From: Anaerolineaceae bacterium oral taxon 439
GTDB lineage: Bacteria > Chloroflexota > Anaerolineae > Anaerolineales > Anaerolineaceae
Direction: 5' to 3'
DNA length: 64,000 bases
NCBI GenBank assembly: GCA_001717545.1
Contig: CP017039.1
Span: forward strand, 496,001 to 560,000
Position numbers and translations under genes: made by a program. Shown in pieces: positions 6,813 through 60,562 of the stretch. A model generated the notes under the pieces. The model was not told where the DNA came from, did not search any database, and saw only the letters and a program-made list of their open reading frames with translations. Positions within the stretch are counted from its first letter, which is position 1, and each line of letters opens with the position of its first letter.

Positions 6813-7961
6813 ATGCGAGAAGTCGCGATTTTTGAAATCGGCCAAACCCCCGTCGCGGAGCACTGGGACAAAAGCCTTCTGGAGTTGGCCGGCGAACCCA
6901 TTTTACAGGTCTTTGAAAAAACCGGGCTGACGACTGTCGACGCTATCTTTGTTGGCAATATGCTCTGTGGATCGGCGAACCGGCAGCTGCATCTGGGCGC
7001 GTATGTCGCCGATTGGGTGGGCGCGCGAGCCGCCGGCGCGGTGCATGTCGAAGCAGCCTGCGGGTCGGGCGGTGCGGCGTTCCGCGCCGCGCTGATGGCG
7101 GTTGCTTCCGGCGACGTCGAGACCGCGATTGCGGTCGGGGTTGAGAAGATGACCGACTCCCCTTCGGCCGAGATTTCGTCGGAACTGGCGGGAGCGTCCG
7201 ACGCCGATTTTGAGCGGGAAATGGGCGTTTCGTTCGTCGCGCTGAACGCGATGGTCATGCGCCGGTACATGCAGGCGTACGGATACGCTAAAGAAGATTT
7301 CGCCGGTTTTTCGATCAACGCGCACGCTAACGGCGTGAATAACCCGAACGCGCGTTTCCGCTATCCGATTACGAAGGAGAGTTACGCGAAGTCGCCGATG
7401 GCGGCGGATCCGATCAACGTCCTGGACGCGTCGGCGATGGGCGACGGAGCGGCGGCGGTTCTCCTCGTCCCGTTCGAACGGATCGCCGGTCCCGGGAACG
7501 CGATTAAAGTCGTCGGTTCTGGCTCGGCGACCGATACGATCGCGATTCATGATCGGCGCGATCCGCTCTGGCTGAAAGCGGCGGAACTCTCCGCGGCTCA
7601 GGCGTACCGTCAATCCGGCCTGTCGCCGCGGGAAATCGACCTGTTCGAGATGCATGACGCGTTTACGATTATCGCGGCGCTGTCGCTGGAGGCCTGCGGC
7701 TTCGCCGAACGCGGAAAAGGCGTTCGCCTGGCGGACCCGGAGTTGATTTCGCCGCGGGGAAAGCTGCCGCTGGCGACGATGGGCGGGTTAAAGGCCCGGG
7801 GTCATCCGGTCGGCGCGACCGGCCTGTACCAGCTCGTCGAAGCGATCCAGCAGCTGCGCGGCGAGTGCGGCGCGAATCAGGTCGACGGCGCGCGGATCGC
7901 AATGGCGCAGAATATCGGCGGATCCGGTTCGAACGTGTATACGCATATCCTGCGTCGCTGA
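6813..7961 (+). CDS. Thiolase family protein (SCPx/archaeal type)
   Basis: A 382-residue thiolase-superfamily enzyme. The nucleophilic cysteine is Cys83 in VEAACGSGGAAFRAA; the second-half motifs are FEMHDAFT near residue 280 and GGLKARGHPVGATG with His at about 331. The C-terminus has MAQNIGGSGSN instead of the CxGGG loop of ordinary degradative thiolases; this matches SCPx-like and archaeal thiolases, which act in acetoacetyl-CoA formation or side-chain cleavage. The archaeal relatives are usually encoded beside a DUF35 protein and HMG-CoA synthase; neither is here. The substrate is therefore open. A GAGGAG site precedes the ATG. Confidence 0.85.
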   Translation: MREVAIFEIGQTPVAEHWDKSLLELAGEPILQVFEKTGLTTVDAIFVGNMLCGSANRQLHLGAYVADWVGARAAGAVHVEAACGSGGAAFRAALMAVASGDVETAIAVGVEKMTDSPSAEISSELAGASDADFEREMGVSFVALNAMVMRRYMQAYGYAKEDFAGFSINAHANGVNNPNARFRYPITKESYAKSPMAADPINVLDASAMGDGAAAVLLVPFERIAGPGNAIKVVGSGSATDTIAIHDRRDPLWLKAAELSAAQAYRQSGLSPREIDLFEMHDAFTIIAALSLEACGFAERGKGVRLADPELISPRGKLPLATMGGLKARGHPVGATGLYQLVEAIQQLRGECGANQVDGARIAMAQNIGGSGSNVYTHILRR

Positions 7962-8108
7962 TTTTCGCGGGGCAGTAACCTGTTCGCGTTTGCCTTCTTG
8001 AACTATAATTATTTCGACATTTCGATTTTCAATATATGACTGTCATTAAGCACCCTTGCCCGGTTGGTCAAAGGCGAAACGATTCAAAGGTTAGAAAGGG
8101 TTAAAACA

Positions 8109-50857: not shown

Positions 50858-52216
50858 TTAAAATCCGATCATCCGTTCGTCCAGTAAAAAATCCTGAATC
50901 CCGATGTAGAAAATTCCTTTTTCGTCCTGCCAGGGATGGATCCGGTCCTGGACGACGACGATTTTCCTGAATGAATCGTCGATCCGGAGGAGGGAGTTGG
51001 TCTCCTGCTCCCGTTTTTCAGCTTCGTCGATCCGCAGCGCGGATTGGATATAGGTTCGCTGGCTCCCATGGTTGACGACGAAATCGACTTCAAGCTGGCC
51101 GCGGGTTTTCCGTTCCCCGCCCGGATCGCCTGCCGCCCGGGTGCTGTATGGAACGACGCCGACGTCGACGTTATATCCGCGTCGGATCAGGTCGTTATAC
51201 AGGATATTTTCCATGAGATGCGTTTCTTCCGTTTGCCGGAAGTTGAGACGCGCGTTCCGAAGCCCGATATCGGTAAAATAATATTTCAGCGGCGTGTCAA
51301 AATATTTCGCCCCTTTGATATCGTACCGTTTCGCGGCGCTGAGAAGATACGCTTCGACGAAATAGTCGAGATATCTGGCGATGGTACTGTGAGAAATGCG
51401 CAGCTTCCTTTCTGAGAGGAAGCGGTTCTCCAGCTTCGTCGGGTTCGTCAGTGAGCCGATCGCCGAGGAGACGAAATCCAGCAGGATTTCGAGCGTTTCT
51501 TTTTCGTTTCGGATATCGTTCCGTTCGATAATGTCCCTGACGTACGTTTCGTCCATCAGGTCTTTCAGATAGCGGCTTTTTTCCTCTGCGCTTTCGAGCG
51601 ATAAAAGATAAGGCATCCCTCCGTACGTACAGTATTCTATCCAGGCGTCGCCGCCCGGACTTAACGCTGATAACGGGTCTGCGCGGTAAGATGCGGAATG
51701 CGTTTCGTAGTAAGCTGGATAAAATTCACCGAACGATAGCGGAAAGACGCGGATTTCATCGCCCCGGTCCCGGAACTGGGTCAGGACTTCCCGGGAGAGC
51801 ATTTTCGAATTGCTCCCGGATACGTAGAGGTCGAGATTCCTGATTTTCATCAAGCCGAGAACCGTGTCGATAAAAGTAACTTTTTCGTTCGGGTCGTCGA
51901 GGTATGGATTCGAAACGCTCGCGCAAAGCTGGATTTCGTCGATAAAAACGTACGCCCGGTCGGTCTTTCCCGCGATTTTCTCTTTGACGAACTCGTTCAG
52001 CGCGAATGGGTTGCGATAGCGAACGCTGTCGATTTCGTCGAGCGCGATTTCGACGATCTGGTCCTCCCGTACCCCGTTTCGCAGCAGGTAATTTTTATAT
52101 AAATTGAAGAGCAGGTAAGATTTTCCGCAGCGCCGGATCCCGGTGATAATCTTGACGCGGCCATTGTCCTTTTTCCGGATCAGTGCGTTCAGGTATGCGT
52201 CTCTTTTGATTTCCAT
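50858..52216 (-). CDS. AAA ATPase with DUF4143 domain
   Basis: A 452-residue protein. The P-loop is TGIRRCGKS (residues 25-33), Walker B is AYVFIDEIQL (about 85-95), sensor-type LYVSGSNSKMLSREVLTQFRDRG follows, and the C-terminal half holds the DUF4143 nuclease-like domain (KYYFTDIGLRNARLN, NILYNDLIRRGYNVDVG, LEVDFVVNHG). The family is widespread and patchy in anaerobes, and its function is unknown; links to toxin-antitoxin or mobile DNA have been suggested. ATG 52216 has AAGGAG upstream on the minus strand. Inverted repeats at 50775 and 52258 bracket the gene, which suggests it arrived as a unit. Confidence 0.9.
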   Translation of the reverse strand: MEIKRDAYLNALIRKKDNGRVKIITGIRRCGKSYLLFNLYKNYLLRNGVREDQIVEIALDEIDSVRYRNPFALNEFVKEKIAGKTDRAYVFIDEIQLCASVSNPYLDDPNEKVTFIDTVLGLMKIRNLDLYVSGSNSKMLSREVLTQFRDRGDEIRVFPLSFGEFYPAYYETHSASYRADPLSALSPGGDAWIEYCTYGGMPYLLSLESAEEKSRYLKDLMDETYVRDIIERNDIRNEKETLEILLDFVSSAIGSLTNPTKLENRFLSERKLRISHSTIARYLDYFVEAYLLSAAKRYDIKGAKYFDTPLKYYFTDIGLRNARLNFRQTEETHLMENILYNDLIRRGYNVDVGVVPYSTRAAGDPGGERKTRGQLEVDFVVNHGSQRTYIQSALRIDEAEKREQETNSLLRIDDSFRKIVVVQDRIHPWQDEKGIFYIGIQDFLLDERMIGF

Positions 52217-52257
52217 GCGATCGACTCCTTTTCTCAGTTCGTGCAATTTACGTTCCA

Positions 52258-52278
52258 TGGCGCACTTTCAGTTCGCAG
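52258..52278 (-). repeat. Right inverted repeat flanking the ATPase gene
   Basis: On the minus strand this reads CTGCGAACTGAAAGTGCGCCA, differing from the left copy (50775-50795) at two positions. It lies 42 bp upstream of the ATPase start, and may be part of its promoter region or an element end. The rest of the gap 52279-52533 holds only the promoter noted next. Confidence 0.7.
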
Positions 52279-52533: not shown

Positions 52534-53361
52534 ATGGGCAAACGACATTTGGTCTTATCGGATATCCACGAAAACAGCGGCAGCCTGCAAAGGATTTTAG
52601 CCGAAGCGCGGAAAACGAACGGCGGATATGACGATATCTGGCTTTTGGGGGATATCCTGGGGCATGCGGACCGGATCAGCGGGAAAGACGCGTTCGATTC
52701 CGACGTCCCGGCCGTGATCGCGCTGATCGAGAACGAGACGAGCGAAGCGGTCTTCGGGAATTGGGAATACTGGCTGACGCATCCGGAGGACGACCGCGTC
52801 AACCCGGCGCAGGAAAAATACCTGGATCAGCTTCAAGGCCTTCGTGCGGGACTGAACGGAACGCTGACTCAGGTCCTGGAGAAGCTGTCGATGAAGTCGA
52901 TGGTGACCGTTACGAAGGAAACGCCGGAATTCACTTTATTCCATGGCTGTACCTTCCGGCTTTACAACGGCGACGGCCATACCGCGGCTCCCTGGGAAAG
53001 CTACCTGTACCCGAAGGAGCTGAACCGCGTTACCCGCGGCCTTTTTGAAAATACGGCGAATTTAACGACGGATCATTTTCTTTTTGGACATACGCACATG
53101 CCGGGATATTTTGTTTATTCGATGCGGACGCTGACGAACGCCTGGATGCAGTTCACCGAGAACTGGCTGGGTGTCGTTTTCCCGTACCGGAACGGCGTTC
53201 AGCGTTTCGGGATCAACCCGGGAAGCGTCGGCGAACGGCGAGCCGGCTTGCCGCGCACGGCGTTAATTGTCGATCAGGAGCGCGCGACGTTCGAGTATGT
53301 CGCCGATCCGAAGTCGCTCTGCGGCGGGAGGAATGGCGCGCGGGCTTTTGGAGGGATATGA
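52534..53361 (+). CDS. Calcineurin-like metallophosphoesterase
   Basis: A 275-residue soluble enzyme. Metal ligands are in LVLSDIHEN (Asp10, His12), LLGDILGH (Asp40), FGNWE (Asn76, in place of GNHD), a His in LFHGCTF, and FGHTHMP (about residue 184); NPGSVGERR follows. The pattern is that of the YfcE/MJ0936-type phosphodiesterases, some of which act on phosphoproteins or cyclic nucleotides. The start overlaps nothing but follows a -10 box by 55 bp. Its TGA overlaps the ATG of the kinase-like gene by 4 bp (53358-53361), so a shared role in phosphate turnover is a strong inference. Confidence 0.9.
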   Translation: MGKRHLVLSDIHENSGSLQRILAEARKTNGGYDDIWLLGDILGHADRISGKDAFDSDVPAVIALIENETSEAVFGNWEYWLTHPEDDRVNPAQEKYLDQLQGLRAGLNGTLTQVLEKLSMKSMVTVTKETPEFTLFHGCTFRLYNGDGHTAAPWESYLYPKELNRVTRGLFENTANLTTDHFLFGHTHMPGYFVYSMRTLTNAWMQFTENWLGVVFPYRNGVQRFGINPGSVGERRAGLPRTALIVDQERATFEYVADPKSLCGGRNGARAFGGI

Positions 53362-56300
53362 AATCCGATAAAATCGATCCGATCGTCGCTGAGATCAGCG
53401 GCGCCCGAATCGGCGATCAATTCGTCGAGCTGACGTATACCGGCGGGAAAAGTCAGGTCAGCGCCGCGTTCGCGTACGAATTCATCGCGCAGTCAGGCGG
53501 CGCGCGATATATCCTGAAATTTTTCGACGCGAAGGACGGACTGAATAACGAAACCAGCGTATTGAAACAGGTTAATCGCCTCTTTCAGACGGAATCGATC
53601 CTTGAATCAAGCGCGGTCAAGCAGATGGGGTACATGCCGGTCCCGACGGTCGTCGGCGATTCGATTGAGCTGTTCAACGACGAATTCATGCGCTCGGTTG
53701 ACCCGAGCGAATATAAGATTTTGCTGGAGACGGCCGCCCGCGGGCAGAGCTGCGAGCGGGAGCTTCCGCCGACGTATTCGGAACGGCTGAAGATCGTCGT
53801 CGAGCTGGCGAAGCTGCTGCGTCTCTGCGCACGGGCGAAGATCGCTTACGTTGATATCAAGCCGCTGGAACACGTTTTCTGGACAACGGGGACGTCCGGA
53901 CGAACGGAGATCACGCTGATCGACTGGGGGAACGCGCGGACCGACGCGACGACGACGCAGCTCGTCGACGATATCCGCAAGTTCTGTACTTTCCTGCCGG
54001 AGCTGATTTACGGGAAAAAGATGCTCGACCTGACGAATAACGGGAAGTACGAATACCCGATTCAGAAAGAGAACGACCGGCGCCTGATTTCGCTGCTGGG
54101 GCAGCTGTCCTTCAATACCAATAATCCGCCGCTGACACAGAAATACGCGCAGCTGGTCGGCGACCTGGTCGCGGGTTCGCTGAACGAAATCCGGCTTCAG
54201 ACGAAGATCGTCGACGTATGGGACGATATCTTACGGATCCTTTTCGAAGCGCAGTCCGCCTTCGAGCGGGATACCGGCGCGATCGTATCCTGGGAATCGC
54301 TCCGTCGGGACGCGGAAGCGGCTTTCAGCGTCGACGCGGACGTTTTCCGGTCCCGCGATTTCGCCCGGCTTTGCGCGCCGCGGCTGACGTCGCTCGCTTC
54401 GTACCGGGCGTGGCTGCTGCCGGCGATGCGTTTTATTCAGACCTGGTATGGGAAGATCGACCTGATCCCGCAGCGCGGTTTTGATGATTGTTCCGAGCGG
54501 ATCTTGGTGAACGATCCGACGGGACTGCAAGACGCGTTTACGAAGGTCGGCGGCGTCATCCGGGCGAAATTCAACCGCATGACGCTGCGCAGCGATTTTT
54601 CGGAAACGCTGCTGGAAAGCCTGACGCACTGCGCCGACGTGATTCAGGCGTGGGAATTCATGAAGGAAATCGAGGACGACAAGATGTCGTCCGGCGTTTT
54701 CCAGGTCACGTTCAGTACGTCGAATTTACGCGTGATCGATCCGCTTTTGGCCGACGCCTATCGGAAACAATGTAAACACAGCGTCGAGATTACCGCTGAG
54801 CGCGCGATCGAATCGGCCCCGTCCGAACCGGAACCCGTTCCTGCGACCGAGGCGGTTATCGAAGGCGAAATTATTCCGGTCGAACCGAAGGCGGCGGAGC
54901 CGCCGCCGGCGTTTAATCGGCGCTCGGCGCAGCTGCTTGACGTGTACCGGAACCTGAAACGCTTTTCACACCTGGCGAATGTCGATTTTTTCCGGGATCT
55001 GAACGATTTTATTACTGAGAATAAGGATTATGAAACCGAAATTGCGGCGCGGCTGTCGCCGGTTTTCGACGGCATGCTCAGCGAGGTGGAGGCCTGGATC
55101 GACGGGATCAGCCCCGACCGCTTTATTGTTCCTGACGCGTTTCTGAACAGCGTCGACTGGCTGCAGAACCTGCCTCCGGCGGTCGAAGGCCTTCGGGTTT
55201 CGGTCCAGGGGTCGGAGCTCTCGATTTTTGAGGCGTTCCAGGACAAGCTGTATACCTGTCAGATTGACCTGGCGCGGGCGGGGAACGCATCGCTCGAGCT
55301 GCGTCAGAATCCGGCGCTCCGCGATTCGGTCGGGCGGATTAAAATGCTGCGGAAAAAGCTGGACAGCGAGAACATGATCCGCTTCCGCCGCCTGCTTCAG
55401 GAGCACGATTACGTCAGCGTTCAGCAGATTATCGACGATCACTATATCGAATTTCCAGAGATGTACGAACGGCTCCGGAACGAAATGGCGTTTCAGGAGC
55501 GGAACGACGAGGATCAGCGGACGCTGGCGATTATTAACACAGTCGTCAATGACCTCTATCACAACAGCGGCAATCTTGAAACCGGGAAGCTCCTGAAAAA
55601 TCAGGGAAATATCCCGTATATTTCGCAGCGTCTTTCCGATTACCGGCAGCGCAACGCGCAGATGATCGAGATGCAGTCCGAATTGATGAATACGAAGGAA
55701 TTCGCGATGCGCGCGGCGCGTTCGATTCAGGAAGGGAAACGGCTGTCGGCGCTGACGATCCTGATCGCGGTCGTTATGCTGATTGTTGGCATCGTGCTGT
55801 TGGCGACGTCGATGTCGCGAAACGTATCCCAGACGCAGATGATCTCCCAGCTCCAGCGTCAGATCAGCGAATATCAGGCGACGAATCAGGCGTTAGCGCA
55901 GCGGCAGGCCGAAGCGACGCCGATCGTGATCGTCGCGACGATGGCTCCGACCGCGGCGGCGGCGACGCCTCCCGCGGACGTACCGGTTGTTATCGTGGGT
56001 CCCGACGCGGGAACGGAAACGGGCGAAAGCGCGGCCGCGGAACCGACGGCCGATCTTTCGAGCGAAAGCGTTCCTCCGATTCAAACGCCGGTCGACGCCG
56101 AAGCGGAAGCGCTCCTCTCCCCCTCGGACAGGCACCTCAACGCGCTTCTCAATCAGCAGGTCCGTTTTACGCTTCCCGGAAATTTAGCGCTTTTCGGCGA
56201 CGCGGAGCTCACCCCGAAGCTTCAGGTCGGAACGGTTACCGACTTCGCGCAGGACGTCGGCGGCAAGCTCGTCGCTTATAACGAAAAAGCGGTTCAGCTC

Positions 56301-56543
56301 GAAATCCCGTTTAATATCTTTAAAGACCGCGTTTCGGCCAGCACGCAGCAGAACGTCCTGAACGCGACGAATATCCGCCGCTACTCGGATACGCCGGGGA
56401 ATACCCCGCTCGTCTTTATCACGATGGTCGACGTTGTGCTGACCGAGCCGATTAAGGACTGTACGGAGGAAGCGACGTCGTTCTGCCACGGTACTTTCTC
56501 CCTTTGGATCGAACGGTCCGGGATCGAAAATTCGATAAAATAG
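53358..56543 (+). CDS. Membrane protein with kinase-like domain and outer domain
   Basis: A 1061-residue protein. Residues 1-300 look like a protein-kinase fold: Lys54 in YILKFFD, a possible helix-C Glu65, catalytic-loop equivalent YVDIKPLEHVFW (Asp166, Lys168, but Glu instead of the usual Asn), and IDWGNA (Asp189) for DFG. The essential Asp and Lys residues are kept, so activity is possible. Residues 300-790 are helical with an acidic Pro-rich linker near 480-520. One transmembrane segment is at about 797-819, then a coiled coil (QTQMISQLQRQISEYQ), an Ala/Pro/Thr-rich stalk and a folded outer domain of about 150 residues. I know no named family with this layout. The next gene starts 23 bp after the stop. 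Confidence 0.65.
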   Translation: MKSDKIDPIVAEISGARIGDQFVELTYTGGKSQVSAAFAYEFIAQSGGARYILKFFDAKDGLNNETSVLKQVNRLFQTESILESSAVKQMGYMPVPTVVGDSIELFNDEFMRSVDPSEYKILLETAARGQSCERELPPTYSERLKIVVELAKLLRLCARAKIAYVDIKPLEHVFWTTGTSGRTEITLIDWGNARTDATTTQLVDDIRKFCTFLPELIYGKKMLDLTNNGKYEYPIQKENDRRLISLLGQLSFNTNNPPLTQKYAQLVGDLVAGSLNEIRLQTKIVDVWDDILRILFEAQSAFERDTGAIVSWESLRRDAEAAFSVDADVFRSRDFARLCAPRLTSLASYRAWLLPAMRFIQTWYGKIDLIPQRGFDDCSERILVNDPTGLQDAFTKVGGVIRAKFNRMTLRSDFSETLLESLTHCADVIQAWEFMKEIEDDKMSSGVFQVTFSTSNLRVIDPLLADAYRKQCKHSVEITAERAIESAPSEPEPVPATEAVIEGEIIPVEPKAAEPPPAFNRRSAQLLDVYRNLKRFSHLANVDFFRDLNDFITENKDYETEIAARLSPVFDGMLSEVEAWIDGISPDRFIVPDAFLNSVDWLQNLPPAVEGLRVSVQGSELSIFEAFQDKLYTCQIDLARAGNASLELRQNPALRDSVGRIKMLRKKLDSENMIRFRRLLQEHDYVSVQQIIDDHYIEFPEMYERLRNEMAFQERNDEDQRTLAIINTVVNDLYHNSGNLETGKLLKNQGNIPYISQRLSDYRQRNAQMIEMQSELMNTKEFAMRAARSIQEGKRLSALTILIAVVMLIVGIVLLATSMSRNVSQTQMISQLQRQISEYQATNQALAQRQAEATPIVIVATMAPTAAAATPPADVPVVIVGPDAGTETGESAAAEPTADLSSESVPPIQTPVDAEAEALLSPSDRHLNALLNQQVRFTLPGNLALFGDAELTPKLQVGTVTDFAQDVGGKLVAYNEKAVQLEIPFNIFKDRVSASTQQNVLNATNIRRYSDTPGNTPLVFITMVDVVLTEPIKDCTEEATSFCHGTFSLWIERSGIENSIK

Positions 56544-56566
56544 GATCGGATTGGAAGCGTCCAGCT

Positions 56567-59500
56567 ATGAGCAAGAAAACAACTTTCGCTGAAATTATCG
56601 AACTGATTCTGGATTGGCAGTTAAAAGAAGCCGGAGACCAGATCGATCAGAACCTGACGTCGCTTTCGACCTCTGACCTGAATAAGCTTCGGCTTCTCCT
56701 GGATCAGTATCGCGGTTATCAGATCGATTTCTCCGAAGCGGTCGCCCGTCTCGACGGCGATCCCGAGCAGTCCGAATTCATCTTGAACCAGATTCCGGAT
56801 AACGTCCGCGTTACCCATCCCGAATATCAGGTTCTCATGCGCAATATTCAGGCGTTCCGCGATCAGTCGGCGCTTAAAAAAGCGGAAGCGCTGGTCGGGA
56901 AAGCGGCGGAATATATCCAGATCGAGTTCAACCCGACGCGGGCGGAGGAGGCGATCGAAAACGCGCAGCGGACGTATCCCAACTGGGATCAGGTTTCGTC
57001 GCTGCGGATGAAGATTCATTCCACGCTGGACCTTGTCGGGAAGTTTTCGAAAGGCCTCTCGATTCAGAAGGAAGTCAGCGCGCTGCGCGAGAAGGGCGGG
57101 CTCGCCTCGTATCAGAAAGCCATGCGCCTGATTAATGAGTATGCGACGCTGGGGCTGGAAAAGCTGGGGATTAAGCTTTTCGACGCGGAGATGGAGCGCG
57201 AGGAGCTTTTGAAGATGATTACCCGCGCTGAGGGGGAAAGCTGGACCCATCGTCTCAGCGGCGACGATCAGGATCTCGAAGAAATCCTGAAACTCGAGCA
57301 GTCGATTCGTTCGCTGGAAGACGCCGAAACGAAAAACGTCCGCGTCCTGTATAACAACAACGCCCGGTTGATGAATTTATTACTGGCGGAAATCGGGACG
57401 CTCGATTTATCGTCGGAGCGCGCGATTCAGGCGGATAAACGGATCGGCGAGCTTCGCGAAAAGAACAGTAAACTTAAAGAGGAAGCGATTCTGGACGTCG
57501 CGAACCGCGGAAACGGATATTACGAACTGGCGCTCAAAGCGTTCGAAATAGGCGAGTTCGCGACCGCGGAGGACAACCTTCGCTTAGCGCTCGAAGCCGG
57601 AACGAGCGATTCGACGTACGCAGAGGGGGAATATCTCGGGAATATCGAGCTCCCGAAGGAAACGGTCGCCCGGATTCAGGAGCTTTCCGATCGGCTTCGG
57701 GAAGCCAGGGCGCAGCGGGAAAAGTTCGGGTTCCGGCTGAACGAGATTCGGAAGGCATACAGCGACGAGAAATTCGAATCTGTTTCCGAGCTGGAAAACT
57801 GGCTCGCGGAGATCAGCGTTTTTTACCGGCTTGACGCCGCGACGCCGGGGCTGGCCGATTTCAGGCGCGAATTAACCGAAAAGCTGGAGCGGATGCGGTC
57901 GTTTTCGCTTGATCTGGAAACCGAGAAGGTCGCGCGGGCGCTTGATGAAGGCAACTTTGACGGCGCTTCGGAGACGATCGAAGCGCTTCAGGAACTCAAG
58001 GGCGCCCTGACCGCTTCGGACCGCGAGAGCCTGAAGCGGCTCGAAGAGCGGGTCAGGAAGCTCCGCGATACCAGGGCCGCGGCCGATCCCAGCGTGGCAG
58101 AGATGGATCGCCTGTATGAAAAGGCGGTCGCCTCGCTCCAGCTCGCTGAGCCGGAACACGAGGCCTATCGCGCGGCTTTCGCGGCGGTTGAGGCGCGGTA
58201 CCGGGAAGCCTGGATCGACGTCCCGCTGAAGCTCAGCCGGCAATTTTCGCACCAGGACGCGATCCTTTCCGTGATTGCGGAGAAAAGCGAGGCGGTCGCC
58301 GCGGCCCAGCGCGCCGTTGAGGCCGGACGGGTCACGGAAGCGGACGCTGCTGCGCTGAACGAGCTGAGCGATTCAGCGCTGGCGGAATTCCCTGCGTATA
58401 AAACACTGCGGAAAAAGGCGAACCGGTTATCCGTGCGTAAGGAAGATCATATCATGCAGGACAAGAAGGAAGAAACGACGGTGGCGGACGCCGGGCGGGA
58501 AGCGGCGGCCCCATTCGAAATCAAGACGCGCCGGCAGCGTATTTTCGAAACGCTTTACGCGTTCGACAGTGGGGATTCCTACGCGGAAGCCGCCGATTTT
58601 ATCGAGCGGACGCTGACCGAGGAGGAGAAAGAGGATCCGGCGATTAAATTCGAAATCGATCGGATTTATCAGGCAAACCGGACGAAACAGGCGAAATTCT
58701 ACTATTCGCAGGCGGGAGAAGCGTTGGAACGCCGCGATTACGAGGACGCGGAGGATTTCGCGACGCTTTCGCTGAACGAATTGAATACGGTAAACGCCGC
58801 GCAGCTTTTAGCGGAGGTGAAGAACCGCAGAGAGGCGCAGGAGCGTTCGCTTTCGGAAATCGACGAGTTTATCGAGCTGGAGCTTGACGGATCGAAGCCG
58901 CTTTCGGAAGAGGACATCGAGACGATCCGGCGGATTTCCGACAGAATCGAATCTTTCGGTTCGTTTGAGTCGTTCGACGGGAACGGACGGAGTCGGCTGG
59001 AAACCGCGGACAACCGGATCAAGCGGCTCAAGAATCAGGAAGCGCTCGATTTTTCGAACCTGATGCGCCGGTTTGAGACCTGGGTCATGACCGGGGAGGA
59101 AGGACTCCAGAACGCCGAAGAGGTTTTAGACGCGGTCGAGAAACGGGCCTGGATCGAGAATCACCGGCAGGAGATTTTCGAAGCGCGCCTCAGGATCGAC
59201 GAGGTCCGCAATACGAATCAGGCGCTGGAAATCCTGATCCGGCAGGCGGACCAGTTTATTAAAATCGGCGATTTCAGGTCGGCTGGACGAATAATAAACT
59301 CTTTCAATACCGAAAATATCGCCGCCTGGCCCGACTGGCTTTCGATCCGGCATGATAACGCGTCGCTCCGGATCGAGGAGCTGAAAACGCGCTATGACGA
59401 CGTCGTGGCGCAGTTCGCCCGTGACGAGTCCGGATCCTCGCCGATTCTCGACGCGGTTCGGAACGTGCTCGATCCGGAGACGGGCGGAGCGGACGCGATT

Positions 59501-60562
59501 TCCGGCCTGTTGAACCGGCTGACGCTGATGAAAGGGACGCTGGAAAAAGAGATCGAGGTCGATCCGGAAGTTAACCCGTATCCAAAGCAGTGCGGCTTCC
59601 TGATCGATACGCTGCGTTGGGCGTCGTCGATCGACGACGCGATCAGCCCCTCGTTCACGAAAACGTCTGAGCTGACGCCGGAAGCGATTTTTTCGCTTCG
59701 GCGCGTTGGACGCGATTTAACGGAGCGCATTCCATCGGGATTGGGCTCGCTTCAGGGCGCGTTCGACGAACGGTTGAAATGGCTCGAAACCCGGTCGCAG
59801 GCCGCGCAGATCCTCACGTCGGTCCGGGAAAGTCAGAAGCGCGGCGCGAAACGGGACGGCAGGTCGCAGACGGTCGATCAGGACCTGGCGGCGCTTGGGA
59901 CGATGGCGCTGACCGAGCGGGAAGCGAAAACGCTCGGCGAGCTTCAGGGCGAACGAAAAAAGCGGCGACGGGCCGGCGGGATCCTGATCGCGATTCTATT
60001 GGCGATCCTGACGTTGATTGTGGGACTGTACTATTATTCGCCGAAGCTGATTATGATGTTGACGCCGACGCCGACGGTGACCTCGACGGTTACGCTGACG
60101 CCGACCGCGACGCTGACGCCGACGGATACGCTCGAACCAACGGCGACGGGAACCGCGACGGCGACGCCTGAGCCGACGGCGACGATAACGCTGACGCCCG
60201 AACCGACGATCGCGCCGATCTCCGGGCAGGTCAGGCGGAAGCGCATTGGCGTATACGCGCTTCCGACGGGGCTGAGCGTGAATCTTTCCAACGGGCATCT
60301 TGCCGTGGATTCGCCGATCGAGATCCTGCGCTATTGTCAGCCGACCGGGACGCGCGATTATTGGGTCCTCGTCCGCTATCCGAGCGCGGAGCGGAATAAC
60401 GGATGGGTCTGGGCGTATATTGGCGACGTGGGACAGAGTAATATCTCGATTCAGCCGACGGACGTTCCGGTGAACGAGGCGTTGGAGATGTATCCCGCGG
60501 GGTTCAGGATCCCCTGTCCGCTTGACCCGAACGAGGTCATGCCGGACCAGCCGCCGGGTTAA
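56567..60562 (+). CDS. Giant helical membrane-anchored protein with SH3b-like end
   Basis: A 1331-residue protein I cannot name. Residues 1-1137 are almost all charged helix, with TPR- or spectrin-like spacing (many units such as YYELALKAFEIGEFATAEDNLRLALEAG and YYSQAGEALERRDYEDAEDFATLSLNEL). One transmembrane segment follows at about 1138-1160 (GGILIAILLAILTLIVGLYYY), then a Thr/Pro stalk of about 45 residues and an SH3b-like outer domain (RKRIGVYALPTGLSVNLSNG to NGWVWAYIGDVG). The cytoplasmic part probably serves as scaffold or TPR-type docking surface for the kinase-like partner. ATG 56567 is chosen over 56504, which overlaps the previous gene. Confidence 0.6.
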   Translation: MSKKTTFAEIIELILDWQLKEAGDQIDQNLTSLSTSDLNKLRLLLDQYRGYQIDFSEAVARLDGDPEQSEFILNQIPDNVRVTHPEYQVLMRNIQAFRDQSALKKAEALVGKAAEYIQIEFNPTRAEEAIENAQRTYPNWDQVSSLRMKIHSTLDLVGKFSKGLSIQKEVSALREKGGLASYQKAMRLINEYATLGLEKLGIKLFDAEMEREELLKMITRAEGESWTHRLSGDDQDLEEILKLEQSIRSLEDAETKNVRVLYNNNARLMNLLLAEIGTLDLSSERAIQADKRIGELREKNSKLKEEAILDVANRGNGYYELALKAFEIGEFATAEDNLRLALEAGTSDSTYAEGEYLGNIELPKETVARIQELSDRLREARAQREKFGFRLNEIRKAYSDEKFESVSELENWLAEISVFYRLDAATPGLADFRRELTEKLERMRSFSLDLETEKVARALDEGNFDGASETIEALQELKGALTASDRESLKRLEERVRKLRDTRAAADPSVAEMDRLYEKAVASLQLAEPEHEAYRAAFAAVEARYREAWIDVPLKLSRQFSHQDAILSVIAEKSEAVAAAQRAVEAGRVTEADAAALNELSDSALAEFPAYKTLRKKANRLSVRKEDHIMQDKKEETTVADAGREAAAPFEIKTRRQRIFETLYAFDSGDSYAEAADFIERTLTEEEKEDPAIKFEIDRIYQANRTKQAKFYYSQAGEALERRDYEDAEDFATLSLNELNTVNAAQLLAEVKNRREAQERSLSEIDEFIELELDGSKPLSEEDIETIRRISDRIESFGSFESFDGNGRSRLETADNRIKRLKNQEALDFSNLMRRFETWVMTGEEGLQNAEEVLDAVEKRAWIENHRQEIFEARLRIDEVRNTNQALEILIRQADQFIKIGDFRSAGRIINSFNTENIAAWPDWLSIRHDNASLRIEELKTRYDDVVAQFARDESGSSPILDAVRNVLDPETGGADAISGLLNRLTLMKGTLEKEIEVDPEVNPYPKQCGFLIDTLRWASSIDDAISPSFTKTSELTPEAIFSLRRVGRDLTERIPSGLGSLQGAFDERLKWLETRSQAAQILTSVRESQKRGAKRDGRSQTVDQDLAALGTMALTEREAKTLGELQGERKKRRRAGGILIAILLAILTLIVGLYYYSPKLIMMLTPTPTVTSTVTLTPTATLTPTDTLEPTATGTATATPEPTATITLTPEPTIAPISGQVRRKRIGVYALPTGLSVNLSNGHLAVDSPIEILRYCQPTGTRDYWVLVRYPSAERNNGWVWAYIGDVGQSNISIQPTDVPVNEALEMYPAGFRIPCPLDPNEVMPDQPPG
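60058..60212 (+). repeat. Coding microrepeat for a Thr/Pro stalk
   Basis: Imperfect ACGCCGACG-type units encode the TPTPTVTSTVTLTPT-like stalk of the giant protein. Such stalks span the cell wall or outer layer and are common in Anaerolineae exported proteins. Replication slippage could change stalk length. Confidence 0.75.

Follow-up and report, generated by a model that had tools for sequence, protein, structure and literature searches.

A conserved gene trio encoding a metallophosphoesterase, a kinase-like membrane protein and a giant helical scaffold in a genus of Anaerolineaceae

RESULTS

A three-gene unit on the forward strand and its conservation

The DNA analyzed in this study (the window) is a stretch of 64,000 nucleotides corresponding to positions 496001–560000 of the single-contig, 2.95 Mb genome of Anaerolineaceae bacterium oral taxon 439 (GenBank assembly GCA_001717545.1, contig CP017039.1). 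Our attention was directed to three consecutive genes, all on the + strand, that together make up what we refer to as the trio. Gene 1 (52534–53361) encodes a calcineurin-like (YfcE/SapH-like) metallophosphoesterase of 275 amino acids, gene 2 (53358–56543) encodes a kinase-like membrane protein of 1061 amino acids, and gene 3 (56567–60562) encodes a giant helical scaffold protein of 1331 amino acids. An initial examination of the DNA letters without database searches (the sequence-only reading) had described these as tightly packed genes on one strand, and the coordinates were confirmed, with an overlap of four bases between genes 1 and 2 followed by a gap of 23 bases between genes 2 and 3.

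The trio is a real three-gene unit that is found genus-wide. Genes 1 and 2 were each identified in all 14 genomes examined of the genus to which the window belongs (the window genus) and were adjacent in every one of them; gene 3 adjoined gene 2 in all 13 contigs that were long enough, the contig of genome G003 being left out of the gene 3 counts as it stops inside gene 2. In genome G011, gene 1 lies on a second contig, C55, next to the first part of gene 2, and this copy was left out of the gene 1 alignment; gene 1 of genome G001 is broken by a run of N and was left out of the gene 1 counts. Protein identity to the window versions ranged from 41 to 53% for gene 1, approximately 31 to 44% for gene 2 and 30 to 38% for gene 3. 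Since the arrangement has been conserved across the genus at roughly 30–50% protein identity, it is not a product of chance. No flanking gene family was present in more than seven of the 14 loci, of which those of G003 and G011 are short contigs devoid of flanks. The named records of four relatives carry the labels Leptolinea sp. (three records) and Flexilinea sp. (one record).

Profile searches for genes 2 and 3 were extended to 147 genomes of the family, with few candidates per genome being scored, and revealed no full-length relative of either protein in the 133 family genomes outside the window genus. The matches to the gene 3 profile that were obtained there corresponded to stalk and membrane stretches and were rejected as true relatives. 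Of the two outcomes that would have refuted the sequence-only reading, an N-terminal domain of gene 2 without a kinase fold and homologues of the three genes that are rarely neighbors, neither was observed in the form in which these analyses addressed them.

Gene 1 encodes a metallophosphoesterase with a non-canonical active site

The gene 1 protein passed the gathering scores of two Pfam models, Metallophos_2 (E 1.3e-10) and Metallophos (E 8.8e-5). Its seven metal ligands, D10, H12, D40, N76, H137, H186 and H188, were invariant in all 11 aligned orthologues, in agreement with the complete calcineurin-like metal site that had been noted earlier. The active site is nevertheless non-canonical, because GNW(E) replaces the usual GNH in all 13 orthologues seen, leaving the protein without the catalytic His of the GNH(D/E) motif. 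The nearest NCBIfam models were those of YfcE-type phosphodiesterases, with scores well under their cut-offs, and the nearest solved chains in profile comparisons were 3rqz (E 1.9e-7) and 3qfm (E 1.6e-5). The metal-site pattern is common to gene 1 and these YfcE/SapH-like enzymes, although the relationship is distant and interrupted by inserted segments. Chain 3qfm, the pneumococcal dinucleotide hydrolase SapH, likewise shows GNWE where GNHE would be expected. YfcE/SapH-type relatives cut phosphodiester and dinucleotide bonds. Judged from these similarities, a function as a phosphodiesterase or nucleotide hydrolase would be at least as likely for gene 1 as one as a protein phosphatase; the latter is kept under consideration because the broad Metallophos model of Pfam was also passed.

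Gene 2 encodes a kinase-like domain anchored in the membrane

From the N-terminus, the gene 2 protein is composed of a kinase-like domain (residues 1–301; 53358–54260), a helical region, a transmembrane segment, a short stalk and an outer domain. Residues 1–301 were modeled with AlphaFold2 from five aligned sequences, yielding a predicted local distance difference test score (pLDDT) of 69.6 and a predicted template modeling score (pTM) of 0.68. When the model was compared with the PDB, all 50 matches listed by Foldseek were protein kinases or kinase complexes (best E 3.9e-5), and the same was true of the 50 listed by VIA-align, each a protein kinase or a complex containing one, with YabT of B. 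subtilis (6g4j_A) as the best match (Z 12.8, root-mean-square deviation [rmsd] 5.0, 232 residues aligned). The model thus supports a bilobal protein kinase fold at the N-terminus of gene 2, in agreement with the kinase-like domain of the sequence-only reading.

Conservation of the active site was examined in the 14 orthologues. The residues Lys54, Asp166/Lys168 and Asp189 that had been picked out from the sequence were at their stated places, and K54 (in beta-3), E65 (in alpha-C), D166 (the catalytic Asp), K168 and D189 were invariant in all 14, as was the DFG-like DWG motif to which D189 belongs (residues 189–191; 53922–53930). Within the catalytic-loop motif YVDIKPLEHVFW (residues 164–175; 53847–53882), D166, K168, P169, L170, E171, H172 and W175 were invariant in the same set, so that the loop reads DIKPLEH or DVKPLEH in every orthologue, with a Trp three residues on. 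The Pfam Pkinase model was matched weakly by 13 of the 14 members of the gene 2 family, with a best E of 7.9e-4.

Hydropathy analysis localized a single transmembrane segment to residues 798–816 (55749–55805), and a single segment was observed in all 14 orthologues. The outer domain that follows it (approximately residues 920–1061; 56115–56540) is kept in all 13 orthologues that reach that far, which bears out the topology originally assigned to this protein. About 500 residues, by sequence mostly helical, separate the kinase domain from the membrane. Searches of the Pfam and NCBIfam libraries assigned no family above cut-off to the outer domain and gave no name above cut-off to gene 2 or gene 3; a Pfam scan of gene 2 revealed no PASTA domain up to E 1. 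The matches to PADLOC were to general kinase domains.

Gene 3 encodes a helical platform with a stalk

The gene 3 protein begins with a cytoplasmic helical-repeat region (residues 1–1130; 56567–59956), followed by a transmembrane segment (residues 1136–1154; 59972–60028) that was identified by hydropathy in all 13 orthologues, a Thr/Pro stalk evident in the sequence (approximately residues 1166–1215; 60062–60211; pLDDT <50) and an SH3b-like outer domain (approximately residues 1216–1305; 60212–60481). A model covering residue 132 onward (residues 132–1331; pLDDT 73.1, pTM 0.34) displayed helices up to the membrane, mostly with pLDDT values of 70–90, then a disordered stalk and a small beta domain. 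Fold matches of the helical part were weak, and many were to TPR and other helical-repeat scaffolds; those to eukaryotic helical-repeat proteins were regarded as a shared arrangement only and given no further meaning. For the beta domain, VIA-align returned 9a7d_A (YrvJ; Z 7.5, rmsd 3.8, 75 aligned) and 6biq_B (NlpC2; Z 7.1, rmsd 2.1, 64 aligned), both below the safe level of the tool, which warns that Z values under 8 may reflect a common arrangement. The matched regions of YrvJ and NlpC2 are SH3b domains. The Pfam SH3_3 model was not matched by the window gene 3 protein, and because of this and of the weakness of the fold matches, the model suggests, and does not establish, an SH3b identity for the domain. 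The part order proposed for gene 3 was accordingly retained as regards the helical region, the single membrane segment and the stalk, with its SH3b-like end as a suggestion.

A kinase-kinase-scaffold set in the Anaerolineae

Weak matches of the trio profiles led to a second operon, which we designate K1-K2-S. In K1, a kinase domain is combined with a long helical stretch; K2, also a kinase, measures about 336–415 residues; and S is a helical/TPR protein with a membrane segment, a Thr/Pro stalk and a small outer domain. Ten Anaerolineaceae regions were read, of which five contained K1, K2 and S as direct neighbors in that order, two contained a K1-K2 fusion ahead of S, two (L166 and L170) end inside the operon and one (L167) contained none of it. 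The fused chains are 994–1025 residues in length and carry two kinase-like domains (L168, 4913–7897; L169, 10992–14069; L166, 16–3033). Directly after S, a folC-like gene was recognized by eye in two loci of one genus (L161, 9563–10948; L163, 2853–4226). Inspection by eye of the K1-K2-S operons read revealed no metallophosphoesterase gene inside them; at L110, a metallophosphoesterase-like gene (7285–8016) lies two genes from the K1 gene, on the other strand.

When only matches with E <1e-60 were taken, K2 was present in 45 of the 147 family genomes, representing 7 of 40 genera. The first look of the K2 search was lossy, as genomes G008 and G011 were matched in one search and missed in the other. 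In at least 28 of the 45 genomes with K2, it was found within approximately 3 kb of an S-sized frame (587–675 amino acids) that was matched by the gene 3 profile. Many of the weak S-profile matches proved to be stalk or membrane stretches and were discarded. A search of 298 genomes of the class identified 18 outside the family with a relative of S (E ≤6.1e-15 over the TPR region). K2 is carried by 17 of these, and all 18 possess a frame of 1245–1568 residues with a K2-like loop, which was read as K1 in eight and is inferred to be K1 elsewhere. The three genes were clustered in five of the 18; for the cluster at L225, the place of K2 was taken from the profile search, the frame list having given an antisense frame there. 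A C-terminal membrane segment was present in six long K1 proteins of other families. All four S proteins scanned from other families passed a TPR model of Pfam, and SH3_3 was passed by those of L221, L222 and L228, with that of L227 falling just short (26.9 versus 27); the Anaerolineaceae S protein of L161 passed neither TPR nor SH3_3 in the Pfam scan.

K1 and K2 share the motif D-x-(K/D/A)-x-x-H-x-(F/Y)-W, followed by (I/L)D and a Trp, the latter being replaced by F, C or L in five of 17 K2 proteins. The Lys and both Asp residues are kept in 11 of 11 K2 proteins. The K1 loop reads DVDAKHLFW in L110, L221, L222, L225 and L226, and DIAARHLYW in L111; in the long K1 of all six loci, the catalytic Asp is retained, as is the Asp of DW(G). 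Of five K1 proteins scanned, four scored too low for the Pfam kinase model, and neither of the two Anaerolineaceae K2 proteins scanned gave a Pfam kinase match. In two genomes of family f34, K2 adjoins an opposite-strand gene that by eye resembles PP2C (L112, 6206–7141 and 7355–8482; L114, 7844–8974). As a check on the spread of K1, five loci with weak matches were read, three outside the class (L249–L251) and two inside (L252 and L253); a pattern search found a canonical loop in L250 and L253 and nothing in L249 and L252. Given the loop patterns of these five loci, no spread of K1-K2-S beyond the Anaerolineae is claimed.

Relationship of the trio to K1-K2-S

In hhalign comparisons, the gene 2 kinase profile matched K1 with a probability of 97.1% (E 5.5e-11) and K2 with 96.9% (E 1.9e-10). 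The corresponding values were 19.3% (E 1.2e-3) for a small set of eight canonical kinases encoded at the same loci and 0.1% for reversed K1. At the level of sequence profiles, the kinase domain of gene 2 is therefore related to those of K1 and K2. A kinase tree with nine canonical kinases as the outgroup placed gene 2 with K1 (support 93/87, under the starred level of the tool), a position that is unsafe because of long branches. The best match of the K2 profile was gene 2 itself in seven of the 14 window-genus genomes, and a separate K2 was found in none of the 14 with this profile, in a search whose first look was lossy.

Between the helical parts of these proteins (gene 2, gene 3, K1 and S), hhalign probabilities were 0.3–17.4%, compared with 0.2–0.7% for reversed controls, and homology of these parts was dropped as a line of evidence. 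Gene 3 and the S scaffold profile matched at 8.8% (E 0.0037; reversed 0.2%), with the same order of parts. A 99% profile match between gene 3 and S was set aside, its source being the membrane segment plus the stalk, which is of low complexity.

The two systems have several features in common. In both, the kinase shows a His downstream of the catalytic Lys together with a DW(G/N) motif; both combine large helical regions with a membrane segment, a Thr/Pro stalk and a small outer domain; and where K1-K2-S is clustered, the kinase genes precede the scaffold gene, as they do in the trio. In contrast, the window genus has gene 1 in the stead of a separate K2, and the His of gene 2 lies one residue further along than that of K1 and K2. 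We hold with moderate confidence that the trio works like K1-K2-S. Membership of the trio in K1-K2-S is not established, because K2 is absent.

DISCUSSION

We propose that the three genes act as a single functional unit, whose products would form a kinase and scaffold complex tethered to the membrane and would link the condition of the envelope to a transfer reaction in the cytoplasm. We assign this proposal a probability of about 0.5. Gene 3 would provide a long helical-repeat platform anchored by its single transmembrane segment, and in most species seen its flexible Thr/Pro stalk would carry the SH3b-like domain outward to the wall. Gene 2 would be anchored beside it, with its atypical kinase domain inside and its small domain outside. 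Changes at the wall may alter the assembly of gene 2 with gene 3 and thereby switch the kinase-like domain on or off, while the helical platform would present the substrate and the soluble, metal-dependent phosphoesterase encoded by gene 1 would remove or limit the product. The trio would then be a local version of K1-K2-S, in which two kinases with the His signature and a TPR/stalk membrane protein would do the job. The gene neighborhood, kinase fold, active-site conservation, topology by hydropathy, helical architecture and the relationship of the gene 2 kinase domain to K1 and K2 are observed. From these we infer catalysis by the kinase and a substrate for it, an SH3b identity and wall binding for the outer beta domain of gene 3, physical contact among the three proteins, and reversal of the kinase reaction by gene 1; the same footing applies to the bond made, the ligand and the direction of the signal.

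A number of findings weigh against this proposal, the first group of which concerns gene 2 and gene 3 themselves. The kinase model is of moderate quality, with pLDDT values below 50 in the catalytic loop (residues 165–178) and Foldseek TM-scores of just 0.31–0.51, and the window gene 2 protein gave no match to the Pfam Pkinase model. The Asn of the canonical loop (HRDxKxxN) is absent from gene 2 in all 14 orthologues, with a His one residue further on; in kinases, this Asn holds the second metal. As for gene 3, five of the 13 orthologues stop just past the membrane segment and lack the stalk and outer domain. Sensor-like outer domains on both membrane proteins, as foreseen by the sequence-only reading, therefore hold for gene 2 and for only part of the gene 3 family, and paired outer domains are not essential.

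A second group of adverse findings concerns the link with K1-K2-S. K1 and K2 matched canonical kinases at 99.3 and 98.9%, respectively, and are thus closer to them than to gene 2, and the gene 2 branch in the tree amounts to 3.33 changes per column, such that its placement may be false. With K1 or S, the helical regions of the two trio membrane proteins reached at most 8.8% and are not demonstrably related to theirs; by profile, the outer domain of gene 3 did not match that of S (1.2%). The window genome contains two matches to the K2 profile (E 3.1e-4 and 8.9e-4), both away from the trio, and six window-genus genomes contain none. Eight Anaerolineaceae K1 proteins lack the C-terminal membrane segment, unlike gene 2. 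In other families, the six long K1 proteins that were aligned do not have the catalytic Lys at its place. The K1-K2-S parts are unclustered in 12 of the 18 genomes outside the family, all from family f34, and in genome G325 K1 and K2 are adjacent with S far away. Finally, a 652-residue kinase outside the class (L251, 3123–5081) has DLKPDH, with His at the place of the Asn, and DFG, and lacks the Trp; the occurrence of a His-for-Asn loop there means that His alone is not a marker of the group.

With the loop Asn replaced and the catalytic Lys lost from long K1 proteins, some or all of these proteins may be pseudokinases. The main rival explanation follows from the latter loss and holds that the kinase fold binds nucleotide without transfer, that gene 2 together with gene 3 makes up a strut across the membrane, which ties a helical lattice in the cytoplasm to the wall in the service of cell shape or filament integrity, and that gene 1 is a co-transcribed nucleotide hydrolase. 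The missing Asn in 14 of 14 gene 2 proteins, the missing Lys in six aligned K1 proteins, the very large helical regions and the failure of gene 2 to match the Pfam kinase model are all in its favor. However, a dead kinase would not usually retain K54, E65, D166, K168 and D189 in all 14 orthologues, the Lys and both Asp are likewise kept in 11 of 11 K2 proteins, two K2 genes of another family adjoin genes that by eye are PP2C-like, and gene 1 and gene 2 stay adjacent in all 14 genomes. On balance we regard such a strut as unlikely, though it deserves to be taken seriously.

A classical scheme of reversible phosphorylation, in which gene 2 would act as a Ser/Thr kinase and gene 1 as the matching protein phosphatase, with gene 3 as both scaffold and substrate, is close to the phosphorylation relay that the sequence-only reading had envisaged. 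The kinase side of that relay is in accord with the fold and residues of gene 2, and the complete metal ligands of gene 1, its match to the broad Metallophos model and its constant pairing with gene 2 are also compatible with it. The phosphatase side fared less well: the named proteins closest to gene 1 are YfcE-type and SapH-like, not a recognized protein phosphatase, and the K1-K2-S operons read hold no such gene by eye, with one nearby at L110. We consider this scheme improbable. More doubtful still is the thought that a kinase fold with His for Asn might attach a nucleotide instead of passing phosphate to Ser/Thr, with the gene 1 phosphodiesterase of the window genus as an eraser replacing K2, in an unrecognized envelope-sensing module of the Anaerolineae; SelO is a kinase-fold protein that attaches nucleotide. 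A conserved but functionally loose cluster, in which gene 1 acts on free nucleotides in an unrelated stress response, would suit the identity of its solved relative 3qfm as a dinucleotide hydrolase and the absence of gene 1 from the K1-K2-S operons read, but has little to recommend it when genes 1 and 2 are adjacent in 14 of 14 genomes at 41–53% identity while other neighbors change.

The closest counterparts of the trio among described systems include the PASTA-type Ser/Thr kinases (PknB, PrkC, IreK and StkP), which, like gene 2, possess a cytoplasmic kinase fold, a single membrane segment and an outer domain; PknB (1o6y) was among the VIA-align matches of gene 2. Unlike these kinases, gene 2 has no PASTA domain, has a largely helical linker of about 500 residues and lacks the catalytic-loop Asn, and the trio differs further in that the operon partner is a metallophosphoesterase instead of PP2C and a giant helical protein is co-encoded. 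A Synechocystis protein (gi 1006577) joins a kinase to a membrane segment and an SH3b domain and in this resembles the trio with its SH3b-like end; it is described as one chain, not an operon, with no mention of a giant helical protein (PMC1262709). Taxon-specific kinase subfamilies exist, in an account whose main text does not contain the word Chloroflexi (PMC2877116). Among the listings and abstracts examined on Flexilinea and Anaerolineae kinases, Chloroflexi/Chloroflexota kinomes, Hanks-type kinases and SH3 or TPR kinases, no earlier description of the trio or of K1-K2-S was found. On present evidence, the trio is a variety of membrane kinase signaling and not a separate category.

Should the proposal be true, a large and often filamentous bacterial class would control its envelope through a kinase and scaffold module that is missing from annotation. 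The conservation of the gene sets and their natural variants, namely fused kinases, loss of the outer domain and the presence of a phosphoesterase in genomes without K2, would make both the signal sensed and the bond made directly testable.

With respect to the surroundings of the trio, an ATPase-like gene lies upstream of gene 1 on the opposite strand of the window (50858–52258) and had no relative in the genus loci compared. A family resembling GT2 glycosyltransferases was observed near the trio in seven of the 14 genomes; it lies on the upstream side in four of these and downstream in the other three.

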